Part shown: piece after piece, positions 22,149 to 36,328 of the stretch
Position numbering within the stretch: position 1 is the stretch's first letter
How the letters are laid out: each line of letters begins with the position of its first letter
Origin: Clostridia bacterium
GTDB taxonomy: Bacteria; Bacillota; Clostridia; Oscillospirales; CAG-272
DNA: 64,000 nt
Assembly: GCA_017398595.1 (NCBI GenBank)
Contig: JAFQFR010000056.1
Span: 140,948-204,947, forward strand
Direction: 5' to 3'
Notes under the pieces: model-generated
Seen by the model: only the letters and a program-made list of their open reading frames with translations
What the model was told of the DNA's origin: nothing
Databases searched by the model: none
Program-made: the position numbers and the translations under genes

Positions 22149-22204
22149 GTGTTAAAGTGCGATCATATCGTAGAGGAATCATCACACCAACGCAAAAACC
22201 CGCC

Positions 22205-22474
22205 CTTGTCATCCCGAGCGAAGTCGAGGGATCTCGGGCGGAGGATTTAACGCCGTAGGGGTCGACGTCCTCGGCGACCCGTAAGCCTCGGTTCGATGTC
22301 GTGCAAAACGGCGCGTCCGGAGGTCGCGCCCTACAAATTTGTGCGTTGCCGTAACGATGATGCAATATGCCTTCCCCTCGGGGGGAAGGTGTCACCGAAC
22401 GGTGACGGATGAGGGGTTCCCCCGTTTGCAGGCATCTCCCCGCAAGATCCCTCGACTTCGCTCGGGATGACAAG
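22205..22474. repeat. Nested inverted-repeat element (family 2)
   Basis: Outer arms are 30 bases, perfectly inverted: 22205-22234 (CTTGTCATCCCGAGCGAAGT...) and 22445-22474. Inside are a second palindrome around GTCACCGAACGGTGAC and a CCTTCCCC/GGGGAAGG stem. GGATTTAACGCCG is also repeated directly just inside the left arm and just outside the right arm. The whole 22150-22519 gap holds no gene. The arm sequence recurs at 24931-24952. Confidence 0.8.
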
Positions 22475-22519
22475 CGGGGGATTTAACGCCGCAGGAGAAT
22501 AGCGCCCGCAAGCCTCGGA

Positions 22520-23359: not shown

Positions 23360-24829
23360 TCACACAAGCTCCGCCGCGGCTTTCATGGCATATTTTTCAA
23401 TCAGCGCCCGCTCGGAGAACGGCAGATTGCCGCCGCGAATCAGCTGGTATTTTTCATGCCCCTTGCCCGCCAGCAGCACAATGTCGCCCTCGCGCACATT
23501 TTCCACGACATAGCGGATCGCTTCGGCGCGGTCCGCAATGCACTCGCACGGAATGTCACGCGCAAATGCAGCATGGATCTCCTCGCAGATCGCCAGCGGA
23601 TCCTCAAAATCGGGATTGTCCGCCGTGAGCACCGCCATGTCGGCATGCAGACTGACCGCCTCGCCGATCTCGGCACGGCGACTCTGCGTGCGCCCGCCGA
23701 CCGAACCCGTCACGCACCACAAGCGCTTCGGCGCATAGGCGCGCAGCGTGGTCAGCGCACTGGTCATGCTGAATCCGTTGTGTGCATAGTCGATCACAAA
23801 TACCGCGGGCAACTGTGTGGGAACGATCTCAAAGCGCCCTGCCGCCGCCATATGTGCCAGTGACGCGGCACTCTCGGCAAGGCTCACGCCGAAACGGCGC
23901 GCAAGCGCGATCGCGCACAGCGCGTTTGCCACGCTGAACTCGCCGGGCATCGGCAGCCGCACCTTGCAGGTCTCGGACAGCGCGTGCGCGGTAAACGAAA
24001 TGCCGAGCACACCGCTCTCCAAAAACGGCTCGATCTCGGTCGAATAAACATCCCCCGCGTGCAGACCGAACGAGTTCGACAGCGCCGTGCATCCGTCCAG
24101 CATGTACGCCGAATTTGCGTCCTCGGCGTTGTACACCGCAAAAGATGCGTCATATTCGGTAAATAACTTCTTCTTCGCGTCGCGATAGTGTTCAAACGTC
24201 GGATGCTCGATGCCGCCGATGTGATCGTGCGCAAGATTGGTAAACGCGACCGCCGCAAACGGGATGCCGTATACGCGGTCGAGGTAGAGCGCCTGCGAGG
24301 ATACTTCCAGCACCACCGCCTGCATACCCGCCTGCACCATGCGATCGAAATAGTAGTGCAGATCCAGACTTTCGGGCGTGGTATTCTTCGTGTCGTAGTG
24401 ATTGCCGCCGAAATCCACGCCGTTGGAACCGATGTAGCCCGCAGGGATGCCGTTTTGCGACAGGATCTGGGACAGCATCAGCGAGATCGTGGTCTTGCCT
24501 TTGGTGCCCGTGATGCCGATGACCTTGAGTTTTTCGGCGGGAAAATCATAGTAGGCGGCGCTGACCTTGGCAAGCGCCTTGCGCGTGTTGTCCTGCAATA
24601 CGACGACCGCGTCGGGCGGCAGATCCAGCGGCTTTTCGGCAAGAAACGCACGGCAGCCGAGGGCATACGCGCGCTCGGCGTAGGCGTGCCCGTCGCTGGC
24701 AAAGCCCGTGATGCAGACAAACAGCGCACCCGACTCTGCCGCGCGCGAGTCGCAGATCACGCGCGAAACCTCGCAGTCCGCGCCGTTGTATTCTATTTTC
24801 GCCTTACGAAGAAGCGCGGATAAAAGCAT
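23360..24829 (-). CDS. murE: UDP-MurNAc-tripeptide synthetase (MurE)
   Basis: 489 aa; AAAGGAGAACTTACC precedes the ATG. Adds the third amino acid to UDP-MurNAc-L-Ala-D-Glu in the cytoplasm. Mur ligase P-loop GITGTKGKTT at about residue 107; central block SLDLHYYFDRMVQAGMQAVVLEVSSQAL with HDHIGGIEHPTFEHYRDAKKKLF. The specificity loop reads TADNPDFEDP instead of the DNPR that marks meso-DAP enzymes, so the amino acid added could be L-Lys or another diamine. It lies downstream of an asl-like and an asn-type gene on the same strand. Confidence 0.92.
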   Translation of the reverse strand: MLLSALLRKAKIEYNGADCEVSRVICDSRAAESGALFVCITGFASDGHAYAERAYALGCRAFLAEKPLDLPPDAVVVLQDNTRKALAKVSAAYYDFPAEKLKVIGITGTKGKTTISLMLSQILSQNGIPAGYIGSNGVDFGGNHYDTKNTTPESLDLHYYFDRMVQAGMQAVVLEVSSQALYLDRVYGIPFAAVAFTNLAHDHIGGIEHPTFEHYRDAKKKLFTEYDASFAVYNAEDANSAYMLDGCTALSNSFGLHAGDVYSTEIEPFLESGVLGISFTAHALSETCKVRLPMPGEFSVANALCAIALARRFGVSLAESAASLAHMAAAGRFEIVPTQLPAVFVIDYAHNGFSMTSALTTLRAYAPKRLWCVTGSVGGRTQSRRAEIGEAVSLHADMAVLTADNPDFEDPLAICEEIHAAFARDIPCECIADRAEAIRYVVENVREGDIVLLAGKGHEKYQLIRGGNLPFSERALIEKYAMKAAAELV

Positions 24830-24855
24830 GGTAAGTTCTCCTTTTCATATGTCCC

Positions 24856-25216
24856 GAGAATGACACGGTTGGGCGGTGCAGCAAAGGATCTCGAGGGGAT
24901 CACAGGGAAAGGTTTGCTGTTGCACAACCCCGCCCTTGTCATCCCGAGCGAAACATCCCCCACCGTCATCATTGAGCATAGCGACCTTCGGTCGCATTAG
25001 GCACCACCACGAGATCCCGCTTCGCGCTTTTGCTAACGCAAAAGTTCGATTTCGCTACGCTCCACTCAGGATGACGGCGTGGTGGTGCCGTAGTCGAAAC
25101 CCGCAGGGCAAACGGCACCGCCGTTTGGATCTTGTGGGGATGTGCAGCCGAGGGATCTCGGGCGGAGGTACACGCAAAACGGGAGGAGCAAGCCCCTCCC
25201 CTACCGCTCAGAATGA
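24856..25216. repeat. Repeat-filled gap between murE and the ATP-grasp gene
   Basis: No gene in these roughly 400 bases. Contains CGCCCTTGTCATCCCGAGCGAA (24931-24952, same as the arm at 22203), hairpins such as GCGACCTTCGGTCGC and TTTTGCTAACGCAAAA, GAGATCCC/GGGATCTC pieces and CTCAGGATGAC/CTCAGAATGAC ends. It looks like several overlapping palindromic elements of family 2, partly decayed. Confidence 0.7.
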
Positions 25217-25233
25217 CGCGTGCGAAATTTTCA

Positions 25234-26469
25234 TTATCCCTGGTCGGGGCAATACACCTTATACTTTTTATAGAATCTGCGTCCGTGTTCGATCAGATAC
25301 AGCACGCGCATGGGGTTGCGCAGCACATCGTAGCGGTACCACATCGACGAAGAAGCCTTCTTCGCGCGCACAAGCTGCTTTGCCTGCCGCACTGCCGCCT
25401 TGTTGGCATGGCGCCAGACTACGCCGCGCGGCACATAGTGCCAAAAATGCGGCTCGGACGCTTCAAAAAACGGAATATCCTTGCAAAGCACATAGTCCTC
25501 GACAAGATATTTTGCAATGTTGCAGCCGCTCGACGTCACATAGTAGTTGCTTCTTCCCTGCCGCAGATTGATCTCGAAGGCATTGAGACTGCCGTCGCGG
25601 TCGTCGTACTTAATATCGAAATTGGCAAATCCGCGATAGCCGATGTCCTCGAGCAGTGCGCGGAATTTTTCGGTCAGCTCGGGATTGTACTCGGTGATGA
25701 TCGCCGCGTGGTTGCCCAGCCCTTTGGGCGTGTGCTCCTCGAGCAGAACGTGTCCGAGACACATCATTTTGACCTTGTGATCCTTGCCGACATAGGCGGT
25801 CAGCACGCGCATGTTGGCATCCGAACCGAGGATGCGGTCCTGCAAAATAATGCGCTTTGTATACCCCGAATCGTAGATCGTCTCCACGATCTTTGCCGCT
25901 TCTTCGGCGCTCTCGGCGGTGTACACCTTTTTCATGCCGTCAAAGGGATGATGCCAGTAGTCGATGCTGGACGACGGCTTGACGATGATCGGATAGGCGA
26001 AGCCGAGCTTGTCTGCGGTCAGCTCTGCTGCCGCCGTCGGCTGCGAAAGCACCACCGTCTTGGGATATTTTATCGCATATTTCTCGCACATTTCGTAGAA
26101 ATCCGCCTTATCGACGAGTTTATCCATCAGCGGCTCGTCGATATAGGGGATGATGTAGCGATCTTCCAGCTCCTCGCGATGGCGAATGAGCATGGCGGCA
26201 TATTCGTCGGTACAGCCGAGCGCGATCAGCGTTGCGCCCTCGTGCTGCTTGGCGAAATCGTCCATCGCCATCATAAAGGTGTCATCGCTGTTGAGATTTT
26301 CCACCGCGTGGAACTTTACGATGCTCGTATGCTGCGTAATGCCGATGGCATAGCGGCCGATAGCGTGCGAAACGAGCCCATACTGCTCGTGAAAAGCGCG
26401 CGCCACATTATAGCAGTTCTGATCCGCGCCGATCAGAACGGGAATCACATTCATATTTAGATCTTCCAT
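25234..26469 (-). CDS. ATP-grasp ligase resembling D-aspartate ligase (Asl)
   Basis: 411 aa; AAAAGGAAAAGT before the ATG at 26469. Blocks such as PVLIGADQNCYNVARAFHEQ, IPYIDEPLMDKL, DFYEMCEKYAIKYPKTVV, VKMMCLGHVLLEEHTPKGLGN and FANFDIKYDDRDG resemble, from memory, the Enterococcus faecium D-aspartate ligase that attaches D-Asp to the lysine side chain of the peptidoglycan precursor. The ATP-grasp metal ligands fall in FEINLRQGRSNYY. It is 45 bases downstream of an asparagine-synthase gene and upstream of murE. Alternative: another carboxylate-amine ligase of the same family. Confidence 0.78.
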   Translation of the reverse strand: MEDLNMNVIPVLIGADQNCYNVARAFHEQYGLVSHAIGRYAIGITQHTSIVKFHAVENLNSDDTFMMAMDDFAKQHEGATLIALGCTDEYAAMLIRHREELEDRYIIPYIDEPLMDKLVDKADFYEMCEKYAIKYPKTVVLSQPTAAAELTADKLGFAYPIIVKPSSSIDYWHHPFDGMKKVYTAESAEEAAKIVETIYDSGYTKRIILQDRILGSDANMRVLTAYVGKDHKVKMMCLGHVLLEEHTPKGLGNHAAIITEYNPELTEKFRALLEDIGYRGFANFDIKYDDRDGSLNAFEINLRQGRSNYYVTSSGCNIAKYLVEDYVLCKDIPFFEASEPHFWHYVPRGVVWRHANKAAVRQAKQLVRAKKASSSMWYRYDVLRNPMRVLYLIEHGRRFYKKYKVYCPDQG

Positions 26470-26514
26470 ACTTTTCCTTTTCTTTTTGCCCGAAAGTCTC
26501 CACTTTCGATTGAT

Positions 26515-28371
26515 TTAATTATAAATCGGCAGAATAAAATCGATAAAGAAGCGCTTGTACCAGACAAGGAACGTAAACGTCGTCCAGATCTTGCGCGCGT
26601 TGTTCGCCTTGCCGCTTGCGTGGTCGTCGAGCAGCTTGATCAGCGCGTCGGTGTCGAAGAATTCGGATGCGTACGCGCTCTCAAAATAGCGGCGCACGAT
26701 CTGCACATATTTTTCCTCGCGCAGCCACAGACGGATCGGCACGGGGAAGCCTTTTTTCTCACGGTTTGCCCACTCGTCGGGCAGCGTGCGGTTTGCCGCG
26801 TGGCGCAGCACATACTTGGTATTTTCGGGTGTGATCTTGTATTTCGACGGAATATCCTCCGCCATCTTCATGACCTCTTTGTCGAGGAACGGCACGCGCA
26901 GCTCGAGCGAGTGCGCCATGCTCATTTTATCGGCTTTGAGCAGGATGTCGCCCGGCAGCCAAAGCATGAGATCGAGATACTGCTTCTTGGTCAGCTCGTC
27001 ACGCTCCCGCACGCGGCGATAAATGTTGCCCGTGATGTCGCGCACGCGTTCGCCGTTTTTGTATTCGTCGCGCAGGATGCCCTTGGCTTCTTTTTCGGAA
27101 AAGATCTTCGCCTGTCCGATGAAATAATCCTCGGGGCGACCGCTCGATTTGATGATAAAGTCGTGCCCCTTGAAGTACGGCAGCGCGGATGCGACCTTTG
27201 CCGCGGCAAGGCGCAGCGGCTGCGGGATCTTCTTGTAGCGGCGCATCATCGGCGTTTCGTCGTACCACTCGTAGCCTGCGAAAATCTCGTCCGCGCCCTC
27301 GCCCGACAGCACGACCGTAACATCACGCGAGGCAAGCTCGGCGAGGAAGTACAGCGGTACGCTGGAGGGGTTGGACTGCGGCTCATCCATGTGGTACTGG
27401 ATGGTCGGGAATGCCTCAAAGCACTCGTCCGCAGTGATCATGCGGCGGATATTCCGGATGCCGAGACGTTTCGACAGCTCTGCTGCCTCGTTGGTCTCGT
27501 CGAATTTGTTCTGATCGCTCTCAAAACCGACCGAAAAGGTCTTGTCGGGCATCAGGCAGGCGGTGATGTAGCTCGAATCCACGCCGCCCGACAGGAAGGA
27601 TCCGACGGGCACGTCGCTGATCTTATGCGCCGCGACCGAAGCATGCACGGTCTCGTCCAGCGCGTTTGAAAATTCCTCGAGGGTGCCCTCTTTTGCGTCA
27701 AAGTTGACGTCCCAATAGCGCTCCTTTGTAAACTCGCCGTCCTTCCACTCAAAGCAATGCGCGGGCGGCAGCTTGTAGACGCCGGCGAAGAAGGTCTCCT
27801 CGGTCGCGCTGTACTGGAAAGTGAGGTAGGGCAAGAGCGCATTTTTGTTCACTGCGCGCTCGAAATGCGGGTGCGCAAGCATGCTCTTGATCTCGGAAGC
27901 GAACATAAATTCGCCCTCTTTGGTCGTGGTGTAGTAAAACGGCTTGATGCCGAACATGTCGCGTGCGCCGAACAGCTTTTTCTCGTTTTTATCCCAGATC
28001 ACAAAGGCGAACATGCCGCGCAGCTTCTTGACCAGCTCGCGTCCGCCGTACTGCTCATAGCCGTGCAGCAGTACTTCGCTGTCGCAGTGCGTCACGAAGG
28101 TATGCCCTGCCAGGATCAGCTCCTCGCGCAGGGATGCAAAGTTGTAGATCTCGCCGTTGTAGACCAGCACAAGGCTCTTGTCCTCGTTGTACATCGGCTG
28201 CGAGCCGTCTGCAAGGTCGATGATCGACAGACGGCGAAATCCGAGCGCCATGTCTGCGTCGGTATAGCTGCCCGCGCTGTTCGGTCCGCGATGGATCATC
28301 AGATCCATCATGTTGTTCACGATCTCCTGCTTATACTTCAGTTGTCCGCTGAAGCCGACAATTCCGCACAT
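26515..28371 (-). CDS. Glutamine-dependent asparagine synthase (AsnB/AsnH type)
   Basis: 618 aa. Residue Cys2 of MCGIVGFSG is the glutaminase nucleophile (Ntn domain to about 200; IHRGPNSAGSY, YNGEIYNF). The synthetase domain has the PPi loop SFLSGGVDSSY and LSGEGADEIFAGYEW. It normally makes asparagine from aspartate, ATP and glutamine. Lactococcal AsnH, of the same family and similar length, instead amidates D-Asp in peptidoglycan bridges. Being directly upstream of an Asl-like ligase and murE, this gene may do the latter. An extended -10 (TGATATAAT) lies in the gap upstream, about 28425-28433. Confidence 0.9.
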   Translation of the reverse strand: MCGIVGFSGQLKYKQEIVNNMMDLMIHRGPNSAGSYTDADMALGFRRLSIIDLADGSQPMYNEDKSLVLVYNGEIYNFASLREELILAGHTFVTHCDSEVLLHGYEQYGGRELVKKLRGMFAFVIWDKNEKKLFGARDMFGIKPFYYTTTKEGEFMFASEIKSMLAHPHFERAVNKNALLPYLTFQYSATEETFFAGVYKLPPAHCFEWKDGEFTKERYWDVNFDAKEGTLEEFSNALDETVHASVAAHKISDVPVGSFLSGGVDSSYITACLMPDKTFSVGFESDQNKFDETNEAAELSKRLGIRNIRRMITADECFEAFPTIQYHMDEPQSNPSSVPLYFLAELASRDVTVVLSGEGADEIFAGYEWYDETPMMRRYKKIPQPLRLAAAKVASALPYFKGHDFIIKSSGRPEDYFIGQAKIFSEKEAKGILRDEYKNGERVRDITGNIYRRVRERDELTKKQYLDLMLWLPGDILLKADKMSMAHSLELRVPFLDKEVMKMAEDIPSKYKITPENTKYVLRHAANRTLPDEWANREKKGFPVPIRLWLREEKYVQIVRRYFESAYASEFFDTDALIKLLDDHASGKANNARKIWTTFTFLVWYKRFFIDFILPIYN

Positions 28372-30666: not shown

Positions 30667-31911
30667 TTATTCGTTTTCGCCGAGATATGCAATATATTCT
30701 TCCAGGCACATATCGAGACGATGCATCTCACTTGCATGGTATCTGCCGACAAAACGGTAATGCCACGGTTCAAAGCTATAGCCCGTAATATCCTCTTTTC
30801 CCTCGGGGAAACGAAGGATAAAGCCGAACTTGTAGCAGTTTTCGATCAGCCAGGTATATGCCTCCTCGTTGGCAAAGCGCTGCGACGCGCTCGAAAGGTT
30901 GTGCATATCACAGCACAGTCCCGTCTGATGCTCGCTTGTGCCTGCCTGTGCCGAGTAGGTGTCAACGATCTTTTGCGCTTCGGCGCGGGAAATGCCCGCT
31001 TTCATCTCATTTTCGGTATAGAGATTGTAAAGGTACTCCTGCTTTTCGTAGGAGCGATAGCCGCTGGTGACCGAAACATCGGTATATCCCGCGGCGCGCA
31101 TCTCGATATAGAGCGCCTGCAGAGCCTTTTCTGCCGTTTCGACCATCCGTTCGGTGCGCCCATCCTGACGTACATTGGTGATCTCCACAAGGTTATCGGG
31201 GACATAGCCGGCATCGATCGTAGCAGAGCGATTGACAAGGATCAGATATGCGTCCGTGTCTTCGGGGCACATATACTGCTCATATGCCGAAAGGTCGGTC
31301 ACAAACGAATATGTCGGCGCGACCTTATCGAGCGATCCCTCGGGCGGATCGAGCGGAGCCTCCGCAGTGCCCGTAAAGCCGGTATCCTGATAGAGCGGAT
31401 TGTTCTTGGTGCTGGCATTGTATTCGCCGCGCAGGACCTGCACATCTCCTTTGTCCGTGCTGTGCGAAACCGCAATGCCGCTCATATACTGCTCGACAAA
31501 AGCAAGCGGCACATACAGCTTACCGTCGCGCAGCTTCGCCTTGGCAAGCATGTCCACCTTGCTGCCGTTGAGCAGCGCCGTCCGACTGCCCGCCTCGATC
31601 GCAATGCTCTGCTCCGAATTTGCCGCGAAGAACGTGCGGCTCTGTGCCGAACCGGTCTCGGTCATCTCGCAGAGCGCGGCAATATCGTCAAAGCAAACCA
31701 GCAGCGTATCGCCGTCATAGGCTTCTTTCGCGGAGAGCGTATATACGGTTTTTCCGATCGTGTAGGTGACGCCGCTGTGCTTTTCACCGCTGAAAAAATC
31801 CATCGCAAACATGCCGCAGATCACTGCCGCAAGCACAAAAAATACAATAAAAAAGGTCGCGACAGTGTTCTTTGCCGAAACGCGCTTTTGCGATTTTGTT
31901 GTATTTCCCAT
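30667..31911 (-). CDS. Membrane-anchored VanY-type D,D-carboxypeptidase
   Basis: 414 aa; AGAGGACAAAA precedes the ATG. One N-terminal membrane helix (TVATFFIVFFVLAAVICGMF), then a copper-amine-oxidase-N-like stalk domain (about 48-160, with KLYVPLAFVEQYM), then a peptidase M15/VanY domain. Zinc and active-site motifs: SGYRSYEKQ, SEHQTGLCCDMH (HxxGxxxD) and EPWHYRFVG. It cuts the terminal D-Ala of stem peptides outside the membrane. It is 17 bases upstream of the sigma factor gene, probably the same transcript. Confidence 0.88.
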   Translation of the reverse strand: MGNTTKSQKRVSAKNTVATFFIVFFVLAAVICGMFAMDFFSGEKHSGVTYTIGKTVYTLSAKEAYDGDTLLVCFDDIAALCEMTETGSAQSRTFFAANSEQSIAIEAGSRTALLNGSKVDMLAKAKLRDGKLYVPLAFVEQYMSGIAVSHSTDKGDVQVLRGEYNASTKNNPLYQDTGFTGTAEAPLDPPEGSLDKVAPTYSFVTDLSAYEQYMCPEDTDAYLILVNRSATIDAGYVPDNLVEITNVRQDGRTERMVETAEKALQALYIEMRAAGYTDVSVTSGYRSYEKQEYLYNLYTENEMKAGISRAEAQKIVDTYSAQAGTSEHQTGLCCDMHNLSSASQRFANEEAYTWLIENCYKFGFILRFPEGKEDITGYSFEPWHYRFVGRYHASEMHRLDMCLEEYIAYLGENE

Positions 31912-32573: not shown

Positions 32574-33125
32574 CTACGCCCGAATCGCTGTGCCGCTCAG
32601 CAGATCCGCAAAGCAGCCGCCGGAAGTAAAGGACAGCTCGAACCGCACGCCGAGGATATGCAAAAAGCGCGCCGCAGCGTAATTGTAGGTCGAAAGCGGA
32701 CGGTCGAGCGCATCGTCCGAATGCGCGGCGACTAAAATATCGCCGTCATCCGCAAAGCCGCAGACGAACAGCGTGTGATAATAGTCCCCGTTTTCATTGG
32801 CGAGCTGTACCACGTCTCCGATCTCCACGCTCGCCTGTCTGACCTCGGTCGCAAACGGACCGACACCCGCGTTATCCACGATAAAGTTGTAAAAATACTC
32901 CACACCCGTCCAGGACGCGGTGCGCGTGTCGCCGTTTAGGTAGTACCAACCGAATACCGGCGTAAAATTCATCTCACAGCTCCCTGCAAACACGCATTGC
33001 GAAACAAAATTGGTGCAGTCACCGCCAAACCCCGTGTAGTTGACAAAGAGCGGATTGCGCGAAAGCGCCCATCTGCGCGCATACTCCAGCGCGTTTTGCC
33101 GATTATATCGCCGTTCCACCAGCAT
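32574..33125 (-). CDS. Amidase_6-domain protein (NlpC/P60-like)
   Basis: 183 aa, AAAGGATGTGTTTGT before the ATG. Almost the whole protein is a putative amidase domain: RYNRQNALEYARRWALSRNP, the cysteine block FGGDCTNFVSQCVFAGS, and a histidine in GDYYHTLFVCG followed by AAHSDD. In this family the Cys/His pair resembles NlpC/P60 peptidases. There is no signal peptide, so it may act in the cytoplasm or on lysis. Substrate unknown. Single gene. Confidence 0.8.
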   Translation of the reverse strand: MLVERRYNRQNALEYARRWALSRNPLFVNYTGFGGDCTNFVSQCVFAGSCEMNFTPVFGWYYLNGDTRTASWTGVEYFYNFIVDNAGVGPFATEVRQASVEIGDVVQLANENGDYYHTLFVCGFADDGDILVAAHSDDALDRPLSTYNYAAARFLHILGVRFELSFTSGGCFADLLSGTAIRA

Positions 33126-33219: not shown

Positions 33220-36188
33220 TTATTTCTTTTTCTTGATCACGATAACGGCAACTGCCGCTGCGGCAGCGATCACAGCCGCAATACCGACCAGCAGACCGAC
33301 GTTTGTACCCTTTGCAGGAGCCGCAGCCGCGGGAGCAGTCGTGGTCACGGGTGCTGCGGTTGTATCCGCAGGCGTTTCAACCGTTTGCACGGGTGCCTTT
33401 GTGGTTTCGACGGATGCCGCAGTCGTTTTCGCAGGTGCTTTTGTGGTTTCGATGGGAGCGACTGTCGTTTCTACAGGCGCTTTTGTGGTCTCGGCAGGAG
33501 CAACCGTTGTCGCCGCGGGCGCTGTGGTCACCTGCACAGGTGCTTTTGTAGTCTCAGCAGGGACCGCAGTGGTCACTGCAGGGGGCGCAGCGGTCACAGC
33601 GGGCGCTTCCTCGGTGGAAATGTTCACCGTACCGGTGTGTCCTGCGGCGTTATAGGTAATGCCGCCTGTCATCGTTCCGGGCAGCGGGAAGGTCTTCATC
33701 TCCTCACCCGCGGGCCAGCTGTTCACCCAGACATTCGCCGTACCGGTCACATAGGTGTGTCCCATGACGGAACGGTAGCGGGGACTGCCGGTAAACGAAA
33801 CATTCTTGCCGATCACAGCCGTCATGTTGCCGCTGTATGTACCGAACGGAGCAACCGCTGCGATACGGCGGCTGCCGAGCATGAAGTTCACAAATGTGCC
33901 ACCGTTTAAAATAATGGTGCAATCCTTATCCGAAGAAACGGATGCCACGGAGTCAAACTGTGCCGAAGTCGAAGGATCTACAAGGTCCCACACGTTGTAA
34001 CCCGCGTAGAACGACCACGAACCGACCATCTTGACGCTGTCGGTGATCTCTACGCTGTTGAAGCAACAGAAGATACCGGTGTCCGCACTGTGCGTGGATC
34101 GGAGGGTAAGATTATCGATCTTTGTATTGGTGCCGAGCTTGAACGTATCGCCGCCGCAAACGAGCGTTGCATCGCTACCTTCGCCGACCAGCGTGATCTT
34201 ACTCGGCGTCAGCGGGATAAAGACATTTCCCTTAAAGGTGAAGGTGCCAACGATATGGATCGTCACCTCTTCGCCGTAGGGGATCTTGTCAAACGCGACC
34301 GGCAGGCTGCTGCACGGATCTTCCTTGGTACCTGCACCAAAGGTGCTGCCCTTGTCGGAAATATAAATATCCGTTCTCTTATAGTCTTTTGCAGGTACGG
34401 TGATGCCCTTGAATACGGCATCATAGAAGCTCTTGCCCATGAGTGTAAGACCGGTGTGCGTCGGGTGCAATCTCTCGTTGATATTGCCGTTTTTGTCGCG
34501 GAAGAGTGAGTCATCTTCTGCCGCCGGCAGGGTAAAGCCGTACATATCCACAAAGACATATTTGCCCGGCTCCTCAGCCGCGAGCTTCTCGGTCACACGC
34601 TGCTGGAGCGGATGAATGACCGCGCTCACGCGCAGGTCACGGACAAAGTCAGCGCAGCTGCGATAGATCGCGGAAGAGATAAATACCTTTTCGGTATCGG
34701 GCAGTGCGCCCATCGTCTTTGCGGTCTTGGTCAGGTTGGCTTCAAACTCCTGCAGACCGCCGTTTGTACCGCCGGCAATGCTGCTGTCATTGGAACCGAT
34801 CGCAATGATCACATAATCCGCATCGGTCTCCTCACTGGCGAGTGTCCATGCCAGCATTTTATCGTACGGACGCACGATCGATGCGCACACACCCGAACCG
34901 GCAACACCGTAGTTTGCAACGATCACTTCTCTGCCGTCTGTCTCAGCGAACTTCAAGAAGTTTGCGGGGTAAGACTGCGTCAGGCGATCCACACCTGCTG
35001 CCGCAGCCGCATAGCCCTCAGTGATGCTGTCGCCGAGGAATACAACGCGCAGCGGTTCTTCATAGGTCTGTGCCGCGCCGTTGACAACGTCAAAGCGCTT
35101 GAGCTCAATGTTTGCAAGGTCTGCGGGATAGGTGATCGACGCCTTTTCGCTCTTGCCCGCGTATGCCTTGACCTGCGTTGCGTCAAAGAGCGTTTTTACG
35201 GTAAATACAGGCGAGCCGCTGATATTGACCGTGTAATTGCCGCGCAGGACCTGCGTATAGCCCGCCTGCGTGTAATAGGCACTGACCGCGCCGCCCTTGA
35301 AGGTACCGCCGCTGATGTTTACGGTGATGTCGCCGTCCATCGCATAGTATTTTCTATCCGAAAGGGTAGTCGTGGACTTTTCGGAGGCATCGCAGTTTGC
35401 AGCGCCCATTCTGCCGCGAACGTAGATCGGGCAGTTGAACGTACCGCCTGTGATGGTCAGCGTTGCGTCATCGGCGAGAATCGACATGCCCGAAACGCTG
35501 AACGTGTCATAGTTTTTGTTGTTGGAAGCGGTGGAATAGGTACCCACCTTGCCGAACGTACCGCCGTTTATCGTGATGCTGATCGGAGCCGCGATCGAAC
35601 CGATATTGTGTGCCGGACTCGTGCGGCGGTTACCGCCCGAGAAAACGTTGAACGTACCGTTTTCCACCACAATATCATACGGCAGCGTGGTAATGCCGTC
35701 GGTCGTGCCGTTCAGGCATCCGCCGTAAAAGCTCAGCATTGCACCGCTCGGGGCAGTCACCGTGAAGTTTTTGCCGAACGTGATGCTGTTGTAGTTACCG
35801 TAAATGCAGTATTCTTTACTGCCGAGCAGCGTCACGGGAAGATCGAATGTGACCACATTTTTGTTGGTATTTTTCGTCAGGGCTATATTGGCGCCGATCT
35901 TCAGCGAACCGCCCGCAGCCGCCGTGATCGTCAGATCGCCCGTGGTCTCGGGGATCGAAAGCTCCGCGGATACGGAAACTTCGCCGCACAGAGTGATCGT
36001 ACCGCCTGCGCTGCCCAGCTTGGAAAACGCTGCGGACATCGTACCGACAGGGGAAGACGCGCTCGTGCCGTCGCCCGTGCCGCCGTCGGCAACGTAAACC
36101 GTTTGCCCTTCCGCTGCAAATGCGCTCATGGAACACAGGGAAAATGCCGCAACAAATGCTGCAAAATCGTAAGTATTTTTCTGTTCAT
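33220..36188 (-). CDS. Giant surface SGNH hydrolase with beta-helix arms, membrane-anchored (frameshifted signal peptide)
   Basis: About 990 aa. A beta-solenoid-like N-terminal half (many GGTF, ITING and LTITGGTF repeats) is followed by an SGNH/GDSL esterase domain (VVFLGDSITEGYA, AIGSNDSS, NERLHPTHTG), a second beta-solenoid region, a tail of about 100 residues rich in ETTKAPV repeats, and a final membrane helix with KKKK. The expected start is the ATG at 36188 (AAAGGAATTGTGCATT), but after MNRKILTI the frame runs into a stop; the body is in a frame reachable only through a GTG at 36195. One extra T in the run at 36163-36166 restores MNRKILTIFAAFVAAFSLCS. See findings. Confidence 0.75.
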
Positions 36189-36328
36189 AATGCACAATTC
36201 CTTTCAGAATTTATCTCGCAATTTTATAATAACATGCCGGCAAAACAAAAACAACTTAAAAAAATTGTCGCCGCGGTTACGCTTTTTTTACCTGCTCTCC
36301 GTGGATCGGTGCACCGCCTTGCCTGCAA

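Follow-up and report, generated by a model that had tools for sequence, protein, structure and literature searches.

The window, by which we mean the entire stretch of 64,000 nucleotides of clostridial DNA that was analysed, contains three neighbouring genes that a preliminary description had assigned to an AsnB-type amidotransferase, an ATP-grasp protein and a MurE, all on one strand, and each of them is indeed a complete ORF on the minus strand (Table 1). Their grouping is not a matter of chance, because the same genes cluster in dozens of related genomes.

Table 1. Positions of the cassette genes, of features within and between them, and of nearby genes in the window.
Feature	Position	Strand	Remarks
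MurE2 (second MurE), 489 aa	23360-24829	minus	complete ORF; TIGR01085
Specificity-loop codons of MurE2, D404-N405-P406-D407 (DNPD)	23609-23620	minus	MurE alignments
Spacer, 404 bp	24830-25233		between MurE2 and ATP-grasp genes; dispersed-repeat sequence
Asl-clade ATP-grasp carboxylate-amine ligase, 411 aa	25234-26469	minus	complete ORF; putative D-Asp ligase
asnB/asnH-like glutamine-dependent amidotransferase, 618 aa	26515-28371	minus	complete ORF; TIGR01536
VanY-type D,D-carboxypeptidase	30667-31911	minus	~2.3 kb from cassette
Amidase_6 domain protein	32574-33125	minus	
Large protein with GDSL lipase domain	33220-36195	minus	Thr/Ala-Pro-rich tail; C-terminal hydrophobic stretch
ORF of 1017 aa	36374-39427		follows, and is similar to, the GDSL-domain protein gene

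The spacer between the MurE2 and ligase genes is unusually placed, as the corresponding gap is only about 7-20 bp in congeners, and relatives have at this position either a racemase gene or merely a short gap. A remnant of a racemase was sought in the 404 bp and none was recognisable. Short copies of the spacer repeats also occur near 22192-22244 and 22457-22483, and dispersed short repeats are common to the intergenic stretches 22192-22483 and 24830-25233, which flank murE2 on both sides. An Rfam search of eight cassette loci and the window found neither a lysine riboswitch nor a T-box near the cassette. The VanY-type gene of the window is followed by genes for a sigma-70-type factor and a DUF4367 protein; in another family, a VanY-type D,D-carboxypeptidase gene (L084:8381-9193) lies just upstream of the ligase.

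Amidotransferase, ligase and racemase

With 558 bits, the window AsnB is far above the TIGR01536 cut-off of 267; it has GATase_7 and Asn_synthase domains and begins with MCGIVGF, the start of a glutaminase of the N-terminal Cys type. It is 46% identical over 628 columns to an AsnB of Lactobacillus crispatus whose gene adjoins that of an Asl-type ligase, and in combining the AsnB type and the N-terminal Cys glutaminase with linkage to an Asl-type ligase it has the attributes of an AsnH-type enzyme. Another full-length AsnB is encoded elsewhere in the window genome.

The ATP-grasp protein has no Pfam match and only weak NCBIfam matches, but its AlphaFold model is a confident ATP-grasp fold (pLDDT 92). 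The PDB entries that match this model best belong to ATP-grasp enzymes, among them L-amino acid ligases and PylC, and no Asl structure turned up when the PDB was searched by sequence. Over nearly its full length it is 39%, 36% and 33% identical to the carboxylate-amine ligases of L. crispatus, Latilactobacillus curvatus and Limosilactobacillus fermentum, respectively. D-Asp bridges occur in the lactobacilli compared, and the pairwise gene adjacencies of the cassette can be seen there as well, as the ligase gene follows asnB in L. crispatus and an amino acid racemase gene in L. curvatus. In a maximum-likelihood tree in which the references for the Asl clade were the three Lactobacillaceae ligases, these ligases are nested in the window ATP-grasp family and nine other ATP-grasp proteins, on long branches, fall outside it (split 94/87). 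The resemblance to D-Asp ligases claimed in the preliminary description therefore survives the phylogeny and, as judged from sequence, the window protein is a member of the D-Asp ligase (Asl) clade. A class-level search of Bacilli aimed at lactic acid bacteria gave hits in other lineages only; one candidate from it (L234), in which an ATP-grasp gene is accompanied by a racemase, seemed Asl-like at first but was dropped when the tree placed it outside the clade. Stand-alone proteins of 118-134 aa whose match to the Asl-type ligase is confined to its N-terminal domain were also encountered (L088:9948-10352, L089:4787-5143 and L090:10015-10419, all on minus strands); the one in L089 is encoded directly upstream of a racemase and MurE2 and that in L088 directly upstream of MurE2, and a full ligase was not detected in any of the three genomes.

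The third type of enzyme in the gene set, encoded between the ligase and MurE in relatives, is an Asp/Glu racemase by both Pfam and TIGR00035, and its nearest solved structure is that of an aspartate racemase (1jfl); while above the TIGR00035 cut-off, it is also just above that of a cysteate-racemase model (198.6 vs 190). The search for a D-Asp racemase that had been suggested at the outset led to an Asp/Glu racemase that belongs to the set. In the window genome it is encoded on another contig (C24:22194-22892) and is 40% identical to the L076 racemase, and the congener G001 carries its racemase inside the cassette. Across 39 relatives, the racemase is present in 11 of the 15 that have the ligase vs two of the 24 that do not (Fisher p=5e-5, with kinship ignored).

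A scan of GTDB genomes for further loci, of which 80 were kept, indicates how widely the arrangement is distributed. The order in relatives within the family is asnB, ATP-grasp, racemase, MurE, often with gaps of tens of bases, and the pattern [asnB]-asl-[racemase]-murE is seen again in Oscillospiraceae, Peptostreptococcaceae, Lachnospiraceae and Slackia, a genus of actinobacteria; loci were also found in Anaerovoracaceae. Among the 52 loci from named genomes with enough flanking sequence, the ligase is accompanied on its own strand by an adjacent MurE in 43, by the racemase in 31 and by asnB in 27.

MurE2 and the retained DAP route

MurE2 has the MurE fold, scores 380 bits against TIGR01085 (cut-off 257) and keeps the motifs of the UDP-MurNAc-dipeptide pocket (K219, TTP, SSQ and R185). 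Where it differs from meso-DAP enzymes is in the specificity loop, which has D407 in place of the Arg of DNPR. This Arg, which in DAP enzymes contacts the second DAP carboxylate, is also missing from the S. aureus MurE, where Asp-406 and Glu-460 hold Lys by its side-chain amine (PMC3829189). D404 and E459 of MurE2 align with these two residues, so the protein has the amine-binding Asp and Glu and no Arg, the residue pattern of an L-Lys MurE; like the L-Lys MurEs of S. aureus, Enterococcus faecalis and L. curvatus, it has kept the loop Asp and the carbamylated Lys. The earlier reading of the loop as DNPD, not DNPR, is confirmed by the alignments and extends well beyond the window, as an Arg-less MurE is linked to the ligase across many genomes: the loops of cassette MurEs are DNPD in 52 cases, DNPG in nine, DNPN in five and mostly EDPG-like in the rest, with Arg in none, the few DNPR entries in the loop table being separate DAP-type copies that adjoin an EDPG-type cassette MurE.

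It should be kept in mind that specificity in the S. aureus enzyme is not set by the loop alone (PMC3829189), and the ancestry of MurE2 is not that of the known L-Lys enzymes. The cassette MurEs form two lineages in the tree. Those of the DNPD type all group together (SH-aLRT 98) and lie beside the DAP-type MurEs of dcw clusters, whereas only the EDPG type groups with the Lys references from E. faecalis and L. curvatus; it is with Lactobacillales enzymes that the cassette MurEs of Lachnospiraceae and Slackia are found. Unlike L-Lys MurEs, then, the window protein belongs to a separate clade near DAP enzymes and has Asp, not Ala or Gly, at the position of the Arg, and the case for a new substrate therefore rests on the loop and on gene context. 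The strongest argument that this slot needs a non-DAP ligase is that MurEs of two lineages fill it and that both have lost the Arg, and we propose from these sequence comparisons that MurE2 adds L-Lys (or L-Orn) and not meso-DAP.

Adjacency of an AsnB-type gene and murE is also known from Lactiplantibacillus plantarum, in which asnB1 adjoins murE and AsnB1 amidates meso-DAP (PMC4155827); unlike what we envisage for the window cassette, L. plantarum has no D-Asp branch. Collinsella aerofaciens has a comparable pair (L262, 3904-7458), in which asnB immediately precedes the gene for a MurE that lacks the Arg and has an EDPA loop, and no Asl gene was found in the 13 kb examined around it.

The window genome, which is 75% complete with 1.88 Mb on 57 contigs, contains another MurE. 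It is higher-scoring, lies beside a MurF-like gene in a dcw cluster (C17:14747-16162) and has the loop DNSR, and its presence led us to reject the window murE as the principal MurE of the cell. The genome also encodes meso-DAP dehydrogenase (Ddh; 454 bits) and LysA (439 bits), and the cell can therefore be expected to make meso-DAP as well as L-Lys. It follows from these three genes that MurE2 is an additional, specialised MurE and that the genome encodes two third-residue ligases, and the proposal of a lineage with a non-DAP wall is not supported. As to the dapF/lysA pattern, which had been put forward as a check, LysA is present, and a standard DapF is above cut-off in none of the six genus genomes (G000-G005), although other family members have one. 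Ddh is found in all six, which would explain this absence.

The coexistence of two MurEs is not peculiar to this genus. Ten named clostridial genomes have a DNPR MurE as well as the cassette MurE; in one of these, Faecalimicrobium, the second MurE is known from contig-end fragments only. Conversely, a cassette-type MurE is the only MurE found in three Slackia species and in Eubacterium brachy. Cultured carriers include Romboutsia maritimum, Terrisporobacter mayombei and Claveliimonas bilis with both MurEs, and Slackia piriformis and E. brachy with the cassette type alone. The Eggerthellaceae, which include Slackia, have been described as DAP-type (PMC6113628), and this conflicts with our reading of the only MurE of Slackia. 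A limited literature search for clostridia with two MurEs, and for the wall types of Terrisporobacter, Slackia and E. brachy, yielded that general description and nothing further.

A candidate pathway for a second stem peptide

In the model that we favour, with a probability of roughly 70%, the cassette serves to build a second peptidoglycan precursor that is not of the DAP type, namely an added Lys (or Orn) stem from which a D-Asp/D-Asn branch extends. The Asp racemase, encoded elsewhere in the window genome and within the cassette in many relatives, would make D-Asp, which the Asl-type ligase would join through its β-carboxylate to the side-chain amine; the AsnH-like amidotransferase would then amidate it to D-iso-Asn, and the resulting D-Asp or D-Asn might serve as a branch or bridge in cross-linking. 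As the DAP pathway is kept, together with a MurE of the DAP type, the cell could encode two stem peptides. The sequences show the gene families and their linkage, the loop residues, the phylogenies and the presence of both MurEs in one genome; from these we infer the substrates and the order of the steps, the incorporation of the product into the wall and the timing of cassette use. It also counts against the model that some relatives have MurE2 and a racemase with just the short N-terminal piece of the ligase. The D-Asp/D-Asn bridge of the preliminary description is thus upheld in its chemistry, at the level of sequence, and not in its corollary of a purely non-DAP wall.

The closest parallel is the AslA-RacD-AsnH pathway of L. 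lactis, with Aslfm of Enterococcus faecium as a further counterpart, as it likewise combines an Asl-clade ATP-grasp protein, an amino acid racemase and an AsnB-type amidotransferase. A racD-aslA operon and AsnH have been described in L. lactis, the bridge of which is listed as L-Lys-D-Asp, with no mDAP (PMC4155827); the gene neighbours of the L. curvatus and L. crispatus ligases agree with this description. The clostridial set differs from this pathway in being bundled with its own MurE, beside a complete DAP route and a DAP-type MurE.

Which amine the D-Asp would be joined to bears on an alternative that we consider unlikely, namely that the third residue is L-ornithine and not L-lysine, giving L-Orn-D-Asp/D-Asn branches. 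The wall of L. fermentum is of the Orn-D-Asp type, and its ligase is in the same clade as that of the window. An arginase, which makes ornithine, adjoins the cassette in three loci, beside an EDPG-type MurE or the ligase (L162:11519-12439, L181:10692-11567 and L087:10958-11818), and in L085 (250-2742, minus) an ArgB domain (228 bits against TIGR00761) is fused to the cassette MurE, beside the racemase and ligase. These associations hint at ornithine in some EDPG-type systems; however, they belong to that other MurE lineage and not to the DNPD type of the window, and LysA is present in the window genome. Less probable still is that the ligase and amidotransferase modify the ordinary DAP precursor, with MurE2 having another role and the cell a single stem peptide. 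Such a scheme would fit with the retained DAP MurE, with the amidation of DAP by AsnB-type enzymes in other bacteria (PMC4155827) and with three loci that have the ligase, racemase and asnB but no adjacent MurE (L109, L122 and L254), but it does not account for a MurE that adjoins the ligase so regularly and never with the DAP-binding Arg, or for Slackia and E. brachy, which are without any DAP-type MurE.

The opposite extreme, a wall entirely of the D-Asp/D-Asn type in which the DNSR MurE is vestigial, seems to us improbable. It would be in keeping with a DapF that fails to exceed the cut-off in the genus and with the long branch of the genus dcw MurE, yet this MurE is intact with its Arg, Ddh and LysA are present, and the sister genome G003 (84% complete) keeps the dcw MurE while no cassette ligase or MurE2 was detected in it. 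Finally, it is conceivable, but in our estimation very improbable, that the product of the cassette is a soluble peptide or polymer that stays outside the wall, along the lines of cyanophycin, the synthetase of which also pairs a Mur-ligase with an ATP-grasp module and is weakly matched by MurE2. The conserved UDP-MurNAc-dipeptide pocket of MurE2 speaks against this, and relatives that have no other MurE must use the cassette enzyme for their wall.

Implications for clostridial walls

The third residue is normally regarded as a constant trait of a species, and DAP is what clostridia are generally assumed to have. If a non-DAP MurE does travel with a D-Asp ligase, a racemase and an amidotransferase beside an intact DAP route, then wall type would not be readable from one murE. 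We would give slightly less than even odds to the idea that many gut clostridia possess a repeatedly assembled cassette of this kind, with which one cell could make both a DAP stem and a stem of the Lys/Orn type bearing D-Asp/D-Asn, and choose or mix the two according to condition or cell stage. As cultured carriers exist, the question is directly testable and, if the model is true, it would bear on the sensing of DAP peptides by NOD1, on the specificity of endolysins and bacteriocins, and on chemotaxonomy.
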